From Nemania diffusa (lineage: Eukaryota; Ascomycota; Sordariomycetes; Xylariales; Xylariaceae), in the NCBI GenBank assembly GCA_038501195.1, contig JBBPUQ010000007.1, forward strand, positions 62,001-126,000: a stretch of DNA of 64,000 bases, in the 5' to 3' direction. Below, in pieces: positions 52,301-62,676 of the stretch (position 1 is its first letter; each line of letters opens with the position of its first letter). A model generated the notes under the pieces. That model saw only the letters and a program-made list of their open reading frames with translations, was not told the origin of the DNA and did not search any database. Both the position numbers and the translations under genes were made by a program.

Positions 52301-54550
52301 TCCGAGCTACGAAGGCGACCGCGGAGGCAACTGGACTGATCTAGTCTGCACTAACCCGGCCGTAACAATGTCTCTGAGGTACACCCCTCTAGAACAATGG
52401 CAGATGCTTGATTGCGAAGATGCCTGGCACGACGCCACTCAGACGTGGAAAGACTTGTACAGAAGTGGAGGCGGCGCCAAGTTCTCCAATGTCATTTCCG
52501 AAATCTTCCGCTATCCAATCGCAGACTGCGGCAGCCATGATGACGGTGGCTGCAACTCGCTCCAGGAGTGTAAGATGGACGCTGGCACGGGCCCAGCGGG
52601 ATCTCTGGTTTGGAACTCTCTCGTAACGACCCATCTGGTAGGCCAACCCGTTCTTTTCATTCAGTCGAGCTGTCATTTGGGGGCCTATGCTAATGCTAGC
52701 TTCCTACGGGTTCATAGGTATACGCACATTTCTACGATATCCTGGATGAACTGGCTGGTCAAGTCAGCTTTCGGTTAGTTTCAATTTTCCCCGCAAGATA
52801 GTTGATAGTTTTTGGACACATGCTAACCTATACCGCTAATGCAGTGAGTGAAAGTCGAGCATATATCATATCATTTGGAGTGTTTATCTTTACTGACCAA
52901 AGCTATCCCTGACTGGCAGAATACGATTCGTACAAAGACCATTTCACACCAGTACCAAAAGATGATGATAAGCCGCTGCAAATCTTGTTAGACTTCATCG
53001 GAATTTTTGGCACCATCGCCGGGGCATCTTTTTTCAACAACTGTGAGAGCTTTCCATGCTGTCCTGGTCTCATGCACGCAAGAGAGAGTCTTTGTTCATC
53101 TACTAATTCCCAAAATCAGACCTTAAGGGATTGCCTTCGGCATTTGTCTCAAGCGGCGATGCTAAGGATGGTACTCTGGCATTGATTGCCGGCGGCGTGA
53201 GTATCGCGAAGGATCTAGTCTCTGGGGACTCGGAGTAAGTTTGCTTCACAGATCCCATGATACGATATACTAATTCGTATTGAAAAGCGCCTGGACTGTT
53301 GAAAAACAGGACGATCTCGAGGCATACCTGGGCCAGGTCATTTTCGCCTGGAAAAACGTGACAGATACAACCCTTGGGCAGCTCTTTAACGGAGAGGACG
53401 ACAATATTGACCTCTTGGGTCGTATTATCGCCGGCGGCCGCCTAATTCCAGGGGACTACAGTGGCCACGCCAACCAGGCAGGCCCCCTGACGCCTCCTAA
53501 CGCTACCTACCCGGAACTTACTCTCTTTGTTGAGAAGGCTTTCTGGGGCTTCACAATCCCACTCGGATGGCAGCTCTCCGGGACGCACGGGTTTGTCATA
53601 GATTCCGGTTTCGACTGCGGTACATCTGGCAACCCACTTCCCAATTACATGACGGACAATGTGGCAAAGGCAACAATGTATTGCTATGGCCCGACGAACC
53701 AGTTATACTACGTAGTTGGTGCCATAGGAGATGGACAATTTTGCACCGGCGATGGTGGTTGCGCCGAAATCCTTTTCCAGTTGCCACCTGGGTTGGACCA
53801 ACTAAATGGTGCCAACTATGGAGGGCTCACATTGGGCGAACTAGTAGAAGGGTATGCCTAGATCCTTCTTGTTAAATTGTCCTCCACCCCAGAACTCCAA
53901 CATAGGAGCGAATGAGCAACCAATATCTTGAACAGAGAAGCTTTTCGTGCAGTTGCTAACCTAATTCTCTGCGCAGATCCGTCAACACATATCGAGCAAA
54001 CAACAACAAGAACGGCGGCACCCCACCGGACATCGGCAACACAGGTTCGATAAACGACCTTGTCGACGGCCAAATCACCACCCCGGGCTACGTCCGGTTG
54101 CCGGTGTGCTCGGCCAAGCTGGCCCATCACAACTGGAACCTCGCGACCGCAGACGACTCGATCCTGAAAGATCCCACGTACCCTTGCATGCCGCCAAAGA
54201 CTGAGGAATTCTGCGGCGACTCGACGTTCGTGGACCAGACGAGCGACGCATCACCCCTAGTGGCCGACTGCCTTCAGATCACCAGGAATATCGCGATCGA
54301 CGGCGACTGGCTAACTATGACGACCCAAGGACAGAGGGAAATAGCAAGTTCTGGCACCTGCAAGTTTGGCGTCGAGCGGTCGGGGTCGCTTAATGGTAAT
54401 ATCAATTACCTCGTTGGGAACCAGGACGTCATCGATATCATCATCAGCTCAATCAACATGTTTGGGGGCAGCGGGCGTGTCGGTGCCAAGGGTATTATGA
54501 ATTGCCAGGGCAATATCAAAGGACAGAGTGTCTTATGGGGATTGTATTAA
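49306..54550 (+). CDS. Subgroup-C (killer-toxin-like) chitinase: LysM-LysM-CBM18-GH18...Hce2
   Basis: Ten exons by eye: 49306-51244, 51328-51344, 51406-51618, 51683-51775, 51849-52637, 52718-52757, 52920-53042, 53120-53234, 53288-53851, 53977-54550, about 1488 residues. The exon 6 donor is weak and uncertain. Order: signal peptide (1-26); unassigned Cys-containing region; NNAT repeats; LysM at about 326-372 and 389-437; chitin-binding CBM18-like CPLNACCDVWGQCGTTTEFC (about 480); GH18 from about 531 (RIAYFQGYNLDRPC) with catalytic DGVDIDWEYPG intact (DxxDxDxE) and LTYDLHGQWD. After a long middle region the C-terminus (about 1376-1478) is an Hce2-type domain (CGDSTFVDQTSDAS...). Such proteins are related to the alpha/beta subunit of yeast zymocin and hydrolyse or bind chitin; Hce2 fused to GH18 is a known fungal arrangement. 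Role in antagonism or self-recognition is inference. Confidence 0.85.
50190..50240 (+). repeat. 12-bp repeats encoding NNAT sequons in the chitinase
   Basis: Four tandem copies of acaaacaa(t/c)gct encode Asn-Asn-Ala-Thr. Each unit holds an N-glycosylation sequon. It lies just before the first LysM module, so it probably forms a glycosylated spacer. Confidence 0.8.
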
Positions 54551-54971: not shown

Positions 54972-57156
54972 TTAAATAATAGCTACTATAGTAGCCCGTT
55001 CACTTTCCGTCAAGTTAATCTCATAGGCCTCCTCAAACCCAAGAGGTAGTCTTAAGATTCCGATTCTTTGAAAGACCGATGCTCCTTGTCTTCTTAACCC
55101 CGAGTTATTTCGTAGCTGCAAAGGCGTCTTCAATAAAACAAGGCCAACATTCTTGCTGAGTGCGAAAAGAAAGACAACGGATGTCAAGACATTGTGAGGA
55201 CCCTCTTCGCTAAGCACATAGTCCGCGTGAAATGGCATTATTAGCGACGTGGCCAAGCCGCGGCGGGGATTTAAGTTAGGGACCTCGATTTCAAATCTTG
55301 GGACCGGGTCGTTTGGGAAAAACAGACGATCGTCCGACAGCCGGCATTCACGCAGGACTCCAGACATCACTAAAATAGCTGATGAGACCTGCCCGTATTT
55401 GTTGTTCTCCTCGGTATTGACTTTGTACTCTATAACTGAAGCAGCATGCGTGGCCTTTCTGGGATTCCCTTCCATGATTCGACGATTGGCTTGATCCTGG
55501 AAATATCGATACGCTTGATCACCTCGGTAGTCTCGAGAAGGTCGGCTGTTCCTGCTATTTAGACGCCTTTCTTCAAGTCGACCGAAACCTTCAACCTTAG
55601 TGTTATACACTACTCTCGCCTTCACGGACACCCAGGACCAGGTAGGGCCCCTGTATTTCACCGGCCTCGATGTTTCGGGCTGGAGCTTCTCAACCCGCCA
55701 GGTTAGATCAGACAAGAGCCACTTGGAATCCCACAAGCCAGCAATGTATGTACCGAGATAGAGCCCCATTCGCTCGGCCAGACCGGACAGCGCTGGGAAG
55801 CAATCCTTCTCATTACTCAGTTGTAAGCCTGAGAATTCTTCAACAATGCCGTGCCATTGCACGATCGCATCTATCTTTTTGATCTGACGGTAGTGTGGTA
55901 TCGATAGAATTCTTGGAGAGCGAACATTTGGACCTAAATTATCGCGATTCTCTCCCGCTTCTAATTTGGCTGCCAGAGCAAATTGCCTCTTTAAATTTCG
56001 GGTCTGTGGGAGACTGCCGCACTCACATCGGGCTCCCTCCCCACACTCCCAAACTAGTTCTTGTTTGCAAAAGTGTAAAACTCTTGGAGCTAGTATTCGT
56101 TCTTGGAATGCCCATCCCCTTAAGAGAAGGGGGTAGCTTCCCCTCGAAAGAGCAGTTTTGGGGACTTCCCAATGTTGTAGCACATGGCGAACCCGTAATT
56201 GGTAGGTTTCATCATTCGCACCCAACGCATCCCACGACGTATCAAATGCTGTCACTGGCTCTGTGGGTAAAAACCCGGAGCTGTCACTATTTGATGAGGT
56301 TGCAGCCAGTGTAAGGTAAGAGTTCTGATATATGTCGGCCATCCTTGACGACTCAATCTGCCAGTCACGTTCATCATCTTGAATGATGCAGAGTGCATCA
56401 ATCCATAGATGGTAGATGTTAAGTCGAAGGCAGAAGATAATAGCGTCTCGGAAAGTTGCCGGAAGTTCTATCCATGATATTCCACATTTCCTTTCTTGAA
56501 GATTCTTTCTAGTCGTGATACACGATAACTGTTGGCCCCAGCAGTGACTCAAAGCGGCATATGTCCCATATTCGTTAGACTTTTCAGTAACCTTCACTTG
56601 AACTTCTCCTGTTTCAATCCGTCTAAGGGTGAGTACCCTTGATGGAAATGGAGTTCTAACTATATCGGGGCACGTATGCTTCGCAACGCAAAGTGCCAAC
56701 ATGTCAGTGACCCAGCATAAGGATTGTTGTGACAGTGGGTCGCAGCTTATACGGGTTCTTGGCCTTATGCAATCCCACGGTAGAGGAGGCGACTCGGAAG
56801 ATTCTAGATTGGCTTCTTATTAGCTGGATTTCTCACACGACTCGAGGGGGGTCACCTTCATTTGCTAGACGGAAAATCTCAAACACCAGTCTCGGCCGTC
56901 CGTCAATAAAATAGGTTTCCAAAGTGAGGGTGTCCGTGTGAGCAGTAAGACCATAGCCGTTTACCCTGGAGACGTCTCTGTGAAATGACCAGCTAGTATC
57001 TTGCATAAGTTCGATAGCTTTCAAGAGAATGGTACATGACGGACAGCGATCTTCACGGGCCGATCGCTCAAGCTCCACTGGTATGAAGTCGAGGTGAAGT
57101 CTTTGATCGCTGCTAGAGATTTTGGCAAGATTATGGCAAAGCTCGCAGGGCTGCAT
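54972..57156 (-). CDS. HET-domain protein (heterokaryon incompatibility family)
   Basis: Exons 57156-56856 and 56803-54972 join in frame across a short intron (GTGACC, GCTAAT, TCTAG), giving 710 residues. The start MQPCELCHNL at 57156 is the only upstream ATG and has the Cys pair usual for these proteins. The pre-HET region continues FEIFRLANE, then RPRTRISCDPLSQQSLCWV and HTCPDIVRTPFPSRVL. The HET domain runs from about 182 to 335: YAALSHCWG, LPATFRDAIIFC, YHLWIDALCIIQDDERDW, SSRMADIYQNSYLTLAAT. The C-terminal half contains RGWAFQERILAPRVLHF, typical of the family, and no extra recognised domain. HET domains are cell-death effectors in fungal allorecognition; most paralogues have no known trigger. 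It lies directly downstream of the NLR and on the same strand. Confidence 0.9.
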
Positions 57157-57974
57157 TGTAAACTCCGGAACACTTGAATGAATTAAGGAAGAAGCTATTT
57201 TAAAGGGGATCAAAGGAGTCTTGGTAAGGGAGAAATTACTACACGATTTCCATACTTAGGCAAGCATATCGGTGGTTTGTGAAGGCTTTTAGGGCATCGC
57301 CTACTTGCGCACGAGGAAATGCGTATATGGAGCGTCTAACAGACTTTCGGTATAAATATAAACAACGTAGGTTCTTCCTCCATGAAGCAGATATTGTTAT
57401 TCGCCAGTTGATGATGAGGCTGAGCCCACCCCCAATCCTACCCCTCATTTCAACCAGTGTATTATACTTCTCCAAATGCTTACTAACGACCCCTCACAAT
57501 ACCTCCTTCCGACAATTCTCTTCAATTGTTCATCTAATTCATCAAGTTCCCCTAGTAGCTCATCTGACTCGCCGTGAATAAAGCCCAGTGTGTGTAATCT
57601 ATTCAGTACGCGCCAACAATTCTCCAGATTGTCGACCTTCGCTGTGTCTTATCCGGAGAAGCCAATGGTGCGTAAGCTTTGGCCTGTGCTATAATACCTT
57701 TTCGGAAAGCAGCTAATATAAGAAGGCCAGATCAGGAAACTATATCGGAAAAACTTGTCATCAACGCTGAGATCGCTGATAATCTACTAATATACCAAGT
57801 TGATTATGGACTAGGAACTTTATAGTAAAAATACCTAAAGTTTAGAAGCATGTTATTTTGTGATGACTGTCATTGGGCCAATCACCTCGATACTTCTATA
57901 CCAGGGTAGCGAATCCAGATTACAGAACCCAAATTGAAAATGAGCATCTTTCTAAAGATGCATGTTCCACCATA
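57157..57974. other. Intergenic between HET gene and NLR gene
   Basis: AT-leaning spacer, no gene seen. Short frames on the + strand at 57279-57581 have no family resemblance. Confidence 0.5.
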
Positions 57975-60690
57975 TTAATCAACATTACGCATCGTAGCGC
58001 TTCGAGATTTCGCGCGAATGGAGATCATCGTGCTCCGTATTATGATTTGGCATGCCCTATAAACCAGGAGCATTGTGCCCGTAATCATAAGCCTCCGACG
58101 TCTCCAATGTTCTCGAGTCCGCGGCGTCGGGAGTCCCGTCCTCCATTTCTGTATTGTTGATTGCGCGAATCGAGTATCCGGATGCTCAGGCCCAAGGAAT
58201 TGGGCACGCGCTTCAGCACACCGCTCCATCCAGCGAAATGCGTCATCACTGCGGCCGCCGGTGTCCCAGTACGTGAACGCCAAATTAGCCATGCTAGTTA
58301 GGGTGTCGGGATGGTCTGGTCCGAGTACTCTTTCCCTTCTCTCTATCACCCGCATTTCTAATGACTCAGCCTCCTTCCAATTTCGTTGCTCTCTATACGT
58401 AGACGCTAAGATACTCATGATAGTCAGCGTAGCAGGGTGGTCTGGTCCTCGCATCGCTTCTAACGTTTCCAACGCTAAGCGTGGTGCTGTCGGGGTTGTT
58501 TCCCACGATCCTTGGTTCCAGATCATGCACGCATAGGCAGCCCAATTAACCATCATATCGGGATCGTCGAGTCCTAGGATTGCGTTGCTAGCTTCTGTAA
58601 CCTTCGCCTCGAGTGACCTTGCCTCGTCCAACAGCCCTTGGTTCTTATATATCAAGACTTGGTCTCTCATACGTGCTAGGGCGTTCAGGCTCTCAGGTGT
58701 GACCATTGTTCGAAGAATATCCATACCTTGCATTGCTAGTGCTATGGCATCCTGCCATCGCCTTTGTCCCCAGTACGCTAACCCTTGGAAAGCCATCTGA
58801 TTAAAATCGTGAGCATGATTATCCGATGCCATTTTGATTGCCTCGAGCACTTCAACTCCTAGAGACTGAGACTCCTGCGATTTCCCTTGGGCGAAATACG
58901 TGAATCCGAGGTTCGACAGGCTTTTGATCGTATCGGGATGGGTTGGCCCTAGCACCGTCTTTCTTATTGCCACTACCTGCACCTCTAGCAACTCGGCCTC
59001 GTTTAACAGCCCTTGATTCTTATACGCCAGCGCTAAGCTGCTCATGCTAGTTAGCGTCAAGGGGTGGTTAGATCCCAGTCGCATTCGGCACATCTCTTGC
59101 GCTTGTTTGGACATTGTTTCCGCCAAGGTATGTTTACCTTGCTCTCGGCAATATGAGCTACTATTGTATAAAAGCAGAGCCCATAGTTCAAGAGGTTCAT
59201 CGTTAGCGGGACAGTAATGTATACCCTTTTCAGCGTGTGGTAAAAGCTGTCGACAAGTTTCCCAGTTCTGATAGTCTCCTGAGGGAAAAGCCTTAGCTAA
59301 TCGACTAATAAATTGCACCTTGAACTTTTCGGTTTCGTTATGCCTGTCTAACCACTCTCTAGTTGACAGTTGGACCAGTCTATGCATTTCGAAGGTATTG
59401 CCTGCCTCATTGATGCCAATTAAGCAGAAGTTTCTAAGCGTTTCGATGTCTTCTTCAAATGTGTTTGTCAAAGTCCCTCTGGAAACTGTGCTTTCATTCT
59501 GATGAATGGGTTGAACTAGGTATTCAGAAATAGCCTGTCGGTCGAAGAAAGCTAGAAGCGATAACAAATCCGTTGCGGATGGCTGTTTTGAACGAATATA
59601 ATCAAACGAGAGTTGCCACGTGGTTATAATTGAGTTAGATGCGTCTCTGTCTCGCCGAAGATCACTACTATTGTAGCGTAATAAGAGCGATTCTTTATTT
59701 GCGCGCAATTCTTCTAGGTATGTTTTAACTGAGATCCGAGGTGCTTTTCGTTGAATGTAAGCTGCAGCTTGGCTAATAGCCAGAGGCAAGTATTCAAGCG
59801 CGTGTACAAGTTCTACTCCGTCGTCTTTATCATACTGCGACCCTGACTTTATCGAGAGGAGTTCTAGTGCATGATTCTGGTCCATTGGCTCAACTTCAAT
59901 AATGCTTTTGCAACCGCCGGTAAGTCTAAGGGCTAGTTCCTTATTTCTTGTTGTAATAAGGATTGACCCGTTTGAACTCTGTGGGAAATATGTCCATAGC
60001 GCTCTCTTGTCTCCTTCAACGGTTGCCGTTTGGTTGGCGTTCTCGTCGGCAATATCGTAAAATACGTCAACATAGTCGGCGTTATCTAAAACCATGAACC
60101 ACTTCCCATTCCGCTCATCCTGTAGCCATTGGTAGACAAGCTGGAGGACGTCGGCCTTTGGATGGTTCCGGCCAGGAATCTTGACAGCATCCGCAATAGC
60201 TTTGAAGCCTTCGTCAACGCGTGCTCGTGTGCCAGCATACACCCAGAACGCCCACAGCTCTGTCTCTTGTTTCTTGATGGACGCGTCCCGCACCCTGTGC
60301 GCGTATTCGATGGCAAGCTGGGACTTGCCTACTCCTCCCAATCCCACAAGAGCTACGCGCGATGCTCGTGCTGAGCATGCTTGGTGGATTTGACCGAGTA
60401 TCTTTTTACGTTCGACAAAATCGTTATCACGGCGGAAGGGAATAGTAGATGACGGCGTTGGTGGCGTCTCTAGTCGCTCTACTCTGTATTAGTGACTAAC
60501 GCATCCAAGTCTGCCCAAGCAAGGCGCTAGCAATATATGCATGTATCCAACAGAGTTTATGGACATATACAGCAGCGTTTATGAACATACCCGGAAGCAA
60601 GTGAAACTCGGCAGTAATCGATCCACTATTTTGTCCCACTTGAAACCCTCGATTGCTATCCCCAAAAGAAAGCGCTGTCTGTTCGGCCAT
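57975..60690 (-). CDS. NB-ARC-TPR NLR with N-terminal sigma-type amyloid motif
   Basis: Exons 60690-60591 and 60481-57975 join in frame to 868 residues (GTATGT...CAGAG). The start MAEQTALSFGDSNRG at 60690 opens directly with the motif FGDSNRGFQVGQNSGSI (about 9-25), followed by a Pro-rich linker ERLETPPTPSSTIPFRRD. The NB-ARC ATPase has P-loop GLGGVGKS (80-87), Walker B WFMVLDNAD (about 161-169), sensor SILITTRN and YLPLAISQAAAYI. TPR-type repeats of about 42 residues (GSNHPLTLTSMSSLALAY, GPTHPDTIKSLSNLGFTY, GPDHPDTLTSMANLAFTY, GPEHPDTRFAQ) fill about 430-830, with two degenerate units in the middle. The Arg-rich C-tail after about 820 is unusual. NLRs of this build sense ligands through the repeats, oligomerise through NB-ARC and template amyloid folding of a partner carrying the same motif. 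The partner candidate is the divergent gene at 60909. Confidence 0.9.
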
Positions 60691-60908
60691 CCCATCGACA
60701 ATGAACTCGGGTTGATTGAACAGATCAAGCCTTAGAATTTGGTGAATTGACGATGGCCACAACCTGTCCGAGGTTTTCGAGGGGCTGAGGGAAGAAGCGC
60801 ACGTGACGCTGCCCCCGCCCCTCCACCCCGTTGCTACGTGTTCATGTTTATAAGGAGCTGTCTATTCTTTTGCCATTCTTGCTGCTATGTAGCTTACCCA
60901 TCGTTGCC
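60691..60908. promoter_or_regulatory. 218-bp shared divergent promoter of NLR and effector genes
   Basis: Start codons face away from each other across 218 bp. It contains an E-box-like CACGTG (60800-60805) and a C-rich tract with CCCCT-like elements (60810-60830). Co-expression of the two genes is likely; the factors are not known. Confidence 0.6.
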
Positions 60909-61794
60909 ATGGCTGATCCTTTCAGTATTGCTGCTGGCGTCATAGGCACTCTCGCCCCAGCGGTCCATTGGATACGGCTTTTGTTGGCTGACGTCGAGCG
61001 TCTAGCCGACGCGCCGCAGGCTATCGAGAACCTCAAAGGAGAAATCCGCCTCGTTGACACGACTCTTAAGTCGCTCTCGGAGATTACTAAGCCCCAATGG
61101 GAAGTCCTGGGTACGAGTGTGCTTGAACAGTCAAAGCTAACTTTGACCGCTTGCTCTAAGTCGTGCGAGACGTTCCGAGCCGATATTCTAAGCTGGACGA
61201 AGCACTCTAGCGATGGAAAACTCTCGTGGCGCGATCGAGCGAACTTGAGACTTTTTAAGGAGCACCAAATCAAGTCCATATCGGAGCAGCTAAAGAAGTA
61301 CCGAGCCTCTCTTACTCTTTTGGCGAGCACAGCTACATTGTACGCATTCTTCCAAATGCATAAGCGACAGCTCTGACCCCGGACCCAGGCATGTCTCTAT
61401 CCGCCATGCTCAGATGACTAGAGATATCGAAACAGCGGTTTCAAGCCAAACAGCAGATATTGCTAGTTCAATTACCGTGGTAGATCAAGAGCTCGCAACA
61501 GTCAACGCTAAGCTAGACAAGCTGAACGTTAGCGGGAACAACTCCAATACTGGGTATCATACATATCATACGGACACACATCAAAGCGAGATTCGAGAGC
61601 GACGTGTCGCGCTGCAAATGTGCCTCAAGCTACTCGAAGTACTGAAGTCCAAGAATGAAGAAGAGAGAGAGCGCATTGCCACGAAGGAACGTGATCAGCC
61701 GACAACAGTTACGTTTGGAAATAACAACTCTGGTTTCCAGCTAGGGACTAACACTGGGTCTATTTCCGGGTTCTCCTTTGGTAGCCGGAGTTGA
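60909..61794 (+). CDS. Candidate amyloid-controlled effector: helical N-terminal domain with C-terminal sigma-type motif
   Basis: Exons 60909-61339 and 61389-61794 join in frame (GTACGC...CCCAG) to 278 residues; the junction restores ATLHVSIRHAQMTRDIETA. The start MADPFSIAAGVIG is typical for the fungal STAND N-terminal or PigL_N-like helical domain. The helical part covers about 1-150 (ADAPQAIENLKGEIRLVDTTL, WRDRANLRLFKEHQIKSISEQL), then a probable coiled coil and a charged helix (RERRVALQMCLKLLEVLKSKNEEERERI). The last 25 residues carry FGNNNSGFQLGTNTGSI followed by SGFSFGSRS-stop. This matches the N-terminus of the divergent NLR at 12 of 17 positions. No signal peptide is seen. By analogy with HET-S, HELLP and SesB-type pairs, the NLR motif would seed the fold of this tail and activate the helical domain. 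The toxicity of the domain is inference. Confidence 0.85.
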
Positions 61795-62676
61795 CCGAGT
61801 GGTTGAGTTTGGCGACCTAAGATGTTTGGTTCTGGGGTTATAAGAATCGAGCTCTTAAGCCTCTCATAGCGACCCGTCTAGACAGACCAAAAAGGGGAGA
61901 CCTGATAGTTAGGTATATACTAAGGTTGCCTAAGTTATCAGTAGGGCTAATGCCGGGTTCGACAGCAAGGTGCTTGATATACTACTGGCTCAAGCTATCA
62001 AGATCAGTAAGACATGTATAGAGTTAGATGTCCCCGGCATCTTGCCGCGAGTCTCTTTCATCCTCATACGGTAGTAAGAGATGCCGGTAGAGTGAAGTAC
62101 TAGGTAGATATGATAGACCTGTTATTAGCTTCAATTTTACACTGTTCGTGCGCCGATCAGCTTGTACCTAGGTACCTAGTTAAACCCAGCCATTCTAAAA
62201 ATGAATATCATCGATAATCAAATATATCACATGCATGCCTGTTTGCAAAAGGTACATAAACTACATAAGCCATCAAGTTTCCCAATATCGAATTATTTCA
62301 TCTTATCTTATCTATACAGCATTAGGTAAAGTACCTATACCTAGCCAAGGAGCTTGGTGGACAATCAAATCACCAAAAACTTGGTCTTGGCGCTATTAGT
62401 AGTATCACATTACCAAATCGCATCGATATGTGCACATAGGCACAAGTATAGCGATTAGGTCATATCAATAGTTAGACCTTCAAATGAAACCAGGCCATAA
62501 AACACAACATAGCATGTAGCGGTACCGTAAACAAGGCGATGCGCTATGACGAGTCAGAAGAACAACAATGCACCTAATGAAGAGTATCACATGGCTAGCT
62601 AGCCATACCAGCTGCTTTCCAACGCCTTCCCTGAAATACTGCCCGACATCCTTGACCACTACGAGCTAGCGGTATT
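61795..62676. other. Intergenic, no gene seen
   Basis: 3' flanks of convergent genes. Contains tacctaggta-type words (62165, 62335). No RNA gene or repeat is defined. Confidence 0.5.

Follow-up and report, generated by a model that had tools for sequence, protein, structure and literature searches.

Which amyloid signalling system is encoded by a divergent pair of genes of the fungus Nemania diffusa, a receptor and an effector that share a short motif? The pair lies in the window analysed here, a stretch of 64,000 nt that forms part of contig JBBPUQ010000007.1 (positions 62,001 to 126,000; hereafter contig C7) in a genome of 55.6 Mb and 16 contigs. A first-pass annotation of this DNA had proposed that an NB-ARC-TPR receptor and a divergent 278-aa protein, with starts 218 bp apart, form an amyloid-signalling pair of the sigma type. 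Our gene models and start codons agree with that layout, and the Ses_B profile in both proteins together with a PigL_N-type domain in the effector supports the predicted receptor/effector relationship. The motif, however, points to another family: with a probability of about 0.9, the pair is a PNT1/HELLP signalosome based on the pseudopalindromic (PP) motif.

Class of the shared motif

Receptor and effector motifs are identical at 11 of 17 residues; both strings reported in the first-pass annotation are present, but it had counted 12 identities and had the receptor begin with the motif, which in fact occupies residues 9-25. This similarity is not due to chance: after shuffling, the best ungapped 17-mer never exceeded nine identities, whether both termini were shuffled with their composition preserved (3000 shuffles), the comparison was made with the whole effector (500 shuffles) or the letters of one motif were rearranged among themselves (100,000 shuffles).

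In the literature, the Pfam profile Ses_B serves for PP and NACHT_sigma for sigma (PMC8086366). Both proteins reached the Ses_B cut-off of 23.2 bits, a check that the annotation itself had proposed, the effector with 25.0 bits and the receptor with exactly 23.2; in a genome-wide Ses_B scan the two stretches scored 27.8 bits each. The published PP consensus is FxGx(x)NxGLQLxGxNxGxL (PMC3321046), its core being given as NxGxQxGxN (PMC9815663), while sigma consists of the submotifs GxGxQFNxx and GGTQNINT (PMC3321046). The core NxGxQxGxNxGx[ILV] occurs once per protein (receptor residues 1-50 and the whole effector were searched). Judged from its sequence, the motif is thus of the PP class and not sigma.

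A sigma-type signalosome like the ses locus of Nectria haematococca would also be a cluster of a receptor and its effectors, and Ses_B takes its name from SesB; that locus differs in motif and effectors (PMC3321046). We consider this identity highly improbable for the pair. Neither protein matched NACHT_sigma at E values up to 10, and no GxGxQFN or GGTQN submotif was present in the whole effector or in receptor residues 1-50. The same profile did find three sigma motifs elsewhere in the genome, at C1:352654-355343 (39.5 bits at best), which served as a positive control. Two of these are C-terminal in SesA proteins, one of the two scoring 25.0 bits, under the cut-off of 27.6, and the third is on a frame that neighbours NACHT and WD40 exons; the sigma effectors of this genome are SesA proteins.

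Membership in the HET-S family was considered and rejected, as neither PF11558 nor PF14479 matched the receptor or the effector in the Pfam scan. The het-S/nwd2 and HRAM systems have the same logic of an amyloid motif common to the N-terminus of a receptor and the C-terminus of an adjacent effector, but the motif is another one and the HET-S effector carries the HeLo domain PF14479 (PMC5485727, PMC9815663).

Domains, gene structure and likeness to PNT1/HELLP

Residues 2-190 of the effector matched PF17111 (PigL_N) with an E value of 2e-22 and 80.1 bits (cut-off 27.2), and this accession is the one called Helo_like_N, or HeLo-like, in the literature (PMC9815663). By sequence, then, the effector domain is HeLo-like, as in HELLP. 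The annotation had predicted a PigL_N-like helical executor, "not HeLo or a lipase". PF17111 was indeed found, and the Pfam scan gave neither PF14479 nor a lipase match, but the opposition to HeLo only half holds because PF17111 is the HeLo-like domain of the literature. Among the papers listed by a literature search on PigL_N with amyloid or NLR, none used the term PigL_N.

The structure model of the effector, of modest overall confidence, places helices at residues 7-30, 37-57, 61-67, 69-96, 107-116, 118-195 and 202-245. The tail carrying the motif was modelled with low confidence and is presumably disordered, as the mechanism proposed below needs. Look-ups of solved structures returned no match for the effector or for the motif and six weak or irrelevant ones for the effector alignment, and a Foldseek search of the PDB yielded nothing at E <= 0.001. 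Among the VIA-align matches were MLKL executioner domains and the CC domains of plant Rx and NRG1; these were not counted as evidence because other helical bundles scored equally or higher. HET-S was not among the 50 VIA-align matches listed, which carries no weight. Fold matches of this predicted model do not discriminate.

The receptor comprises, in the Pfam scan, Ses_B, NB-ARC, DUF7779 and six TPR_10 stretches. Its TPR repeats have diverged from one another and form no tandem arrays, the only two arrays in 57900-62000 being short and located elsewhere. Both introns of the pair (Table 1) are predicted from sequence. Across the effector junction the protein aligns without gaps with its relatives, and at the receptor junction five full-length relatives continue from the motif directly into the P-E/D-R-P-E segment. 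The 218-bp region between the start codons is presumably a shared divergent promoter.

Table 1. Coordinates of the gene pair (positions in the window) and of two further loci of the genome (positions on contigs C1 and C3)
Feature	Position	Strand	Description
Effector gene, HELLP-like	60909..61794	+	278 aa, one intron
Effector intron	61340..61388	+	49 bp, GTACGC...CCCAG; after 431 coding nt, phase 2
Effector PP motif	61714..61764	+	FGNNNSGFQLGTNTGSI; residues 253-269; Ses_B 253-271
Receptor gene, PNT1-like	57975..60690	-	867 aa, one intron
Receptor PP motif	60616..60666	-	FGDSNRGFQVGQNSGSI; residues 9-25; has a 5' exon to itself
Receptor intron	60479..60590	-	112 bp; after 100 coding nt, phase 1; lies between motif and NB-ARC exons
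Region between start codons (60690, 60909)	60691..60908		218 bp
Sigma locus	C1:350001-359000		NACHT/WD40 exons and sigma-motif frame on one strand, two SesA genes on the opposite strand
HET-S-type locus	C3:5731000-5738000		HeLo protein and, in divergent orientation, an NB-ARC receptor whose N-terminus is HRAM-like

In Podospora anserina, hellp and pnt1 are adjacent and encode a 271-aa HeLo-like effector and a 971-aa NB-ARC-TPR receptor, both with a PP motif; their motif regions form a prion and convert each other, and the full-length effector triggers cell death (PMC7885112). The window pair is likewise a two-gene cluster of an NB-ARC-TPR receptor with an N-terminal PP motif and a HeLo-like effector with a C-terminal one, in another fungus, a member of the Xylariales. 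The effector is slightly longer in Nemania (278 vs 271 aa) and the receptor shorter (867 vs 971 aa). Each P. anserina gene has a single intron, of 47 bp in hellp (nt 429-475) and 54 bp in pnt1 (nt 95-148) (PMC7885112). These introns follow 428 and 94 coding nt, compared with 431 and 100 in the window, and their phases are the same (2 and 1, respectively), although the receptor intron is longer here (112 vs 54 bp). We take the equal intron number and phases and the nearly equal positions, compared with the published description of the P. anserina genes, as strong evidence that the pair is orthologous to hellp-pnt1. The PNT1/HELLP assignment would extend an experimentally proven PP signalosome to another fungus, with gene structure conserved down to intron phase.

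The pair might be better described as one member of a larger circuit, in which the effector also answers a second receptor or the receptor drives further effectors. A precedent exists in Chaetomium globosum, where one PNT1 controls both HELLP and the lipase SBP (PMC7885112) and where an NB-ARC-TPR receptor and an effector of the HeLo-like type likewise carry the PP motif (PMC7885112, PMC5485727). We regard such wider sharing as unlikely in N. diffusa. A six-frame Ses_B scan of the genome, restricted to best candidates and liable to miss exon-split or very divergent motifs, gave only two matches, both at this pair, and a third PP gene corresponding to SBP was not found in it. Beyond the end of the window, at C7:125001-134000, no lipase match was obtained for the four of 13 listed open reading frames scanned with Pfam. 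The pair has a two-gene layout, no lipase partner having been found in these scans.

What was read here is the layout of the pair, the class of its motif, its domains, its gene structure and its conservation; on the PNT1/HELLP assignment these are consistent with the following mechanism, in which templating, membrane targeting and killing are carried over by analogy from the Podospora and Chaetomium orthologues. A ligand would bind the TPR repeats of the NB-ARC receptor, which would then oligomerize; the clustered N-terminal PP motifs may fold into an amyloid nucleus able to template the PP motif at the C-terminus of the neighbouring effector. This conversion would free the helical HeLo-like domain to reach the plasma membrane, leading to membrane damage and cell death.

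Conservation of the pair among relatives

A total of 22 effector homologues were found, the nearest in Hypoxylon argillaceum. A recognisable PP-like tail is present in 18 of them, nine of these with the strict core, and the remaining four, short models with lengths of 152-189 aa, do not extend to the tail. The tail of homologue P0005, FGQNNYGLQQAVNHGSF, was taken from the alignment, as the relaxed pattern had landed elsewhere. Ses_B at E <= 0.01 matched 13 of the 23 alignment members, the window effector included. On the receptor side, among the best 120 of 1087 homologues, the strict PP core was found in the first 120 residues of 47, a strict or relaxed core in 68, and neither in 52. In six of these 120 receptors (P0033, P0035, P0063, P0098, P0099 and P0131) a glutamate replaces the central glutamine of the core; two of the six have presumed partner effectors, P0005 and P0006, which keep that glutamine and carry alanine in place of the following core glycine (GLQQAVN).

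Loss of function with open frames, that is, a decayed pair, must also be weighed. The mutually divergent TPR repeats of the receptor, unlike the near-identical repeats of homologue P0038, would fit such decay, as would the poor alignment of its last residues with six relatives compared. Against it, neither spliced gene has internal stops, both introns are simple GT-AG introns, and the P-loop GLGGVGKS of the receptor and both motifs are intact; moreover, H. argillaceum keeps the effector (88% identical in the local and 93% in the multiple alignment) together with its motif. Taken together, these data make decay quite improbable.

Linkage of the two genes was examined through contig sizes. For eight of the 22 effector homologues, a receptor homologue is listed from the same organism on a contig of equal size, a proxy in which some contigs are megabases long, and adjacency was shown only for the pair of Xylaria grammica, with the consecutive locus tags g10098 and g10099. 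Across eight loci (the window and seven of the eight relative pairs, that of Xylaria venustula being excluded since the model of its receptor stops within the motif), motif identity averaged 10.6/17 within loci and 9.4/17 between loci, and 4 of 40,320 permutations of partners were as good, a statistic that ignores any ancestry which whole loci have in common. In two of these loci the motifs share only 8 and 9 identities. Loss of the pair and decay of the motif in all close relatives, the outcome that the first-pass annotation held would speak against its proposal, was not observed among the homologues compared.

Other amyloid loci and exchange of receptor tags

Besides the PP pair and the sigma locus, the genome contains a HET-S-type locus on contig C3 (Table 1). 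Its HeLo protein matched PF14479 with 179.6 bits, and its HET-s-like tail scored 24.2 and 27.4 bits in two scans with PF11558, both under the cut-off of 32.2; this was the single, sub-threshold match of PF11558 in the genome. The short N-terminus of the C3 receptor was called HRAM by eye. With PP, HET-S-type and sigma loci side by side, this genome would lend itself to asking whether amyloid tags keep parallel death pathways apart.

The C3 receptor is 61% identical to the window receptor over 406 residues of the NB-ARC region. This match starts at residue 33 of the window receptor, the last full residue of its motif exon, and in the C3 receptor an intron is predicted at the corresponding place and with equal phase, although this intron is 72 nt long, a multiple of three without a stop, and an 87-nt alternative is also in frame. 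The start of the match at the intron after the PP exon suggested to us an exchange of tags.

A quick tree of NB-ARC segments was built from 117 of 122 rows, P0041, P0063, P0067, P0096 and P0133 being left out since their NB-ARC segment was unrecognisable or too short. It held 74 PP, 20 HRAM, 14 long N-terminus, 8 untagged and 1 sigma receptors, according to labels assigned with our own regular expressions, except for P0114, P0089 and P0139, labelled by hand, and the C3 receptor, labelled HRAM by eye; the HRAM rows P0066 and P0073 entered after the pattern was widened post hoc. The HRAM tag is nested among PP receptors. It needs three changes on the tree (mean of 18.9 after shuffling), at least two of which are forced by starred branches; the count of forced changes contrasts HRAM with every other label and does not tell gains from losses, and the stars deserve caution because the tree is a quick one without bootstraps. 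The HRAM label is clustered on the tree, yet not of one piece. Receptor P0139, from Pseudoneurospora, has the same chassis with what appears by eye to be a sigma-like N-terminus, a third tag on this NB-ARC lineage.

Our tentative proposal, for which the odds are somewhat short of even, is that one receptor chassis has swapped its amyloid address tags at an exon boundary. If so, exchanging a single 5' exon would redirect a receptor to a different death effector, and the shared chassis with two different tags would represent a natural experiment on how receptors change partners. That N-terminal domains have been replaced while the NOD domains are nearly identical has already been published (PMC4986451), so that only the exon-bounded swap of one amyloid tag for another may be new; the accessible parts of PMC12258605, PMC7885112 and PMC4986451 do not describe it, in a search conducted mostly outside subscription journals.

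Two further features of the window deserve mention. A HET-domain frame (PF06985) at 54972-56702 on the minus strand, downstream of the receptor gene, places a second death-associated domain beside the pair; its possible first exon, itself without a Pfam match, is at 56833-57156 on the same strand. An Hce2 domain (PF14856, putative necrosis-inducing factor) is encoded at 54188-54550 on the plus strand of the window.
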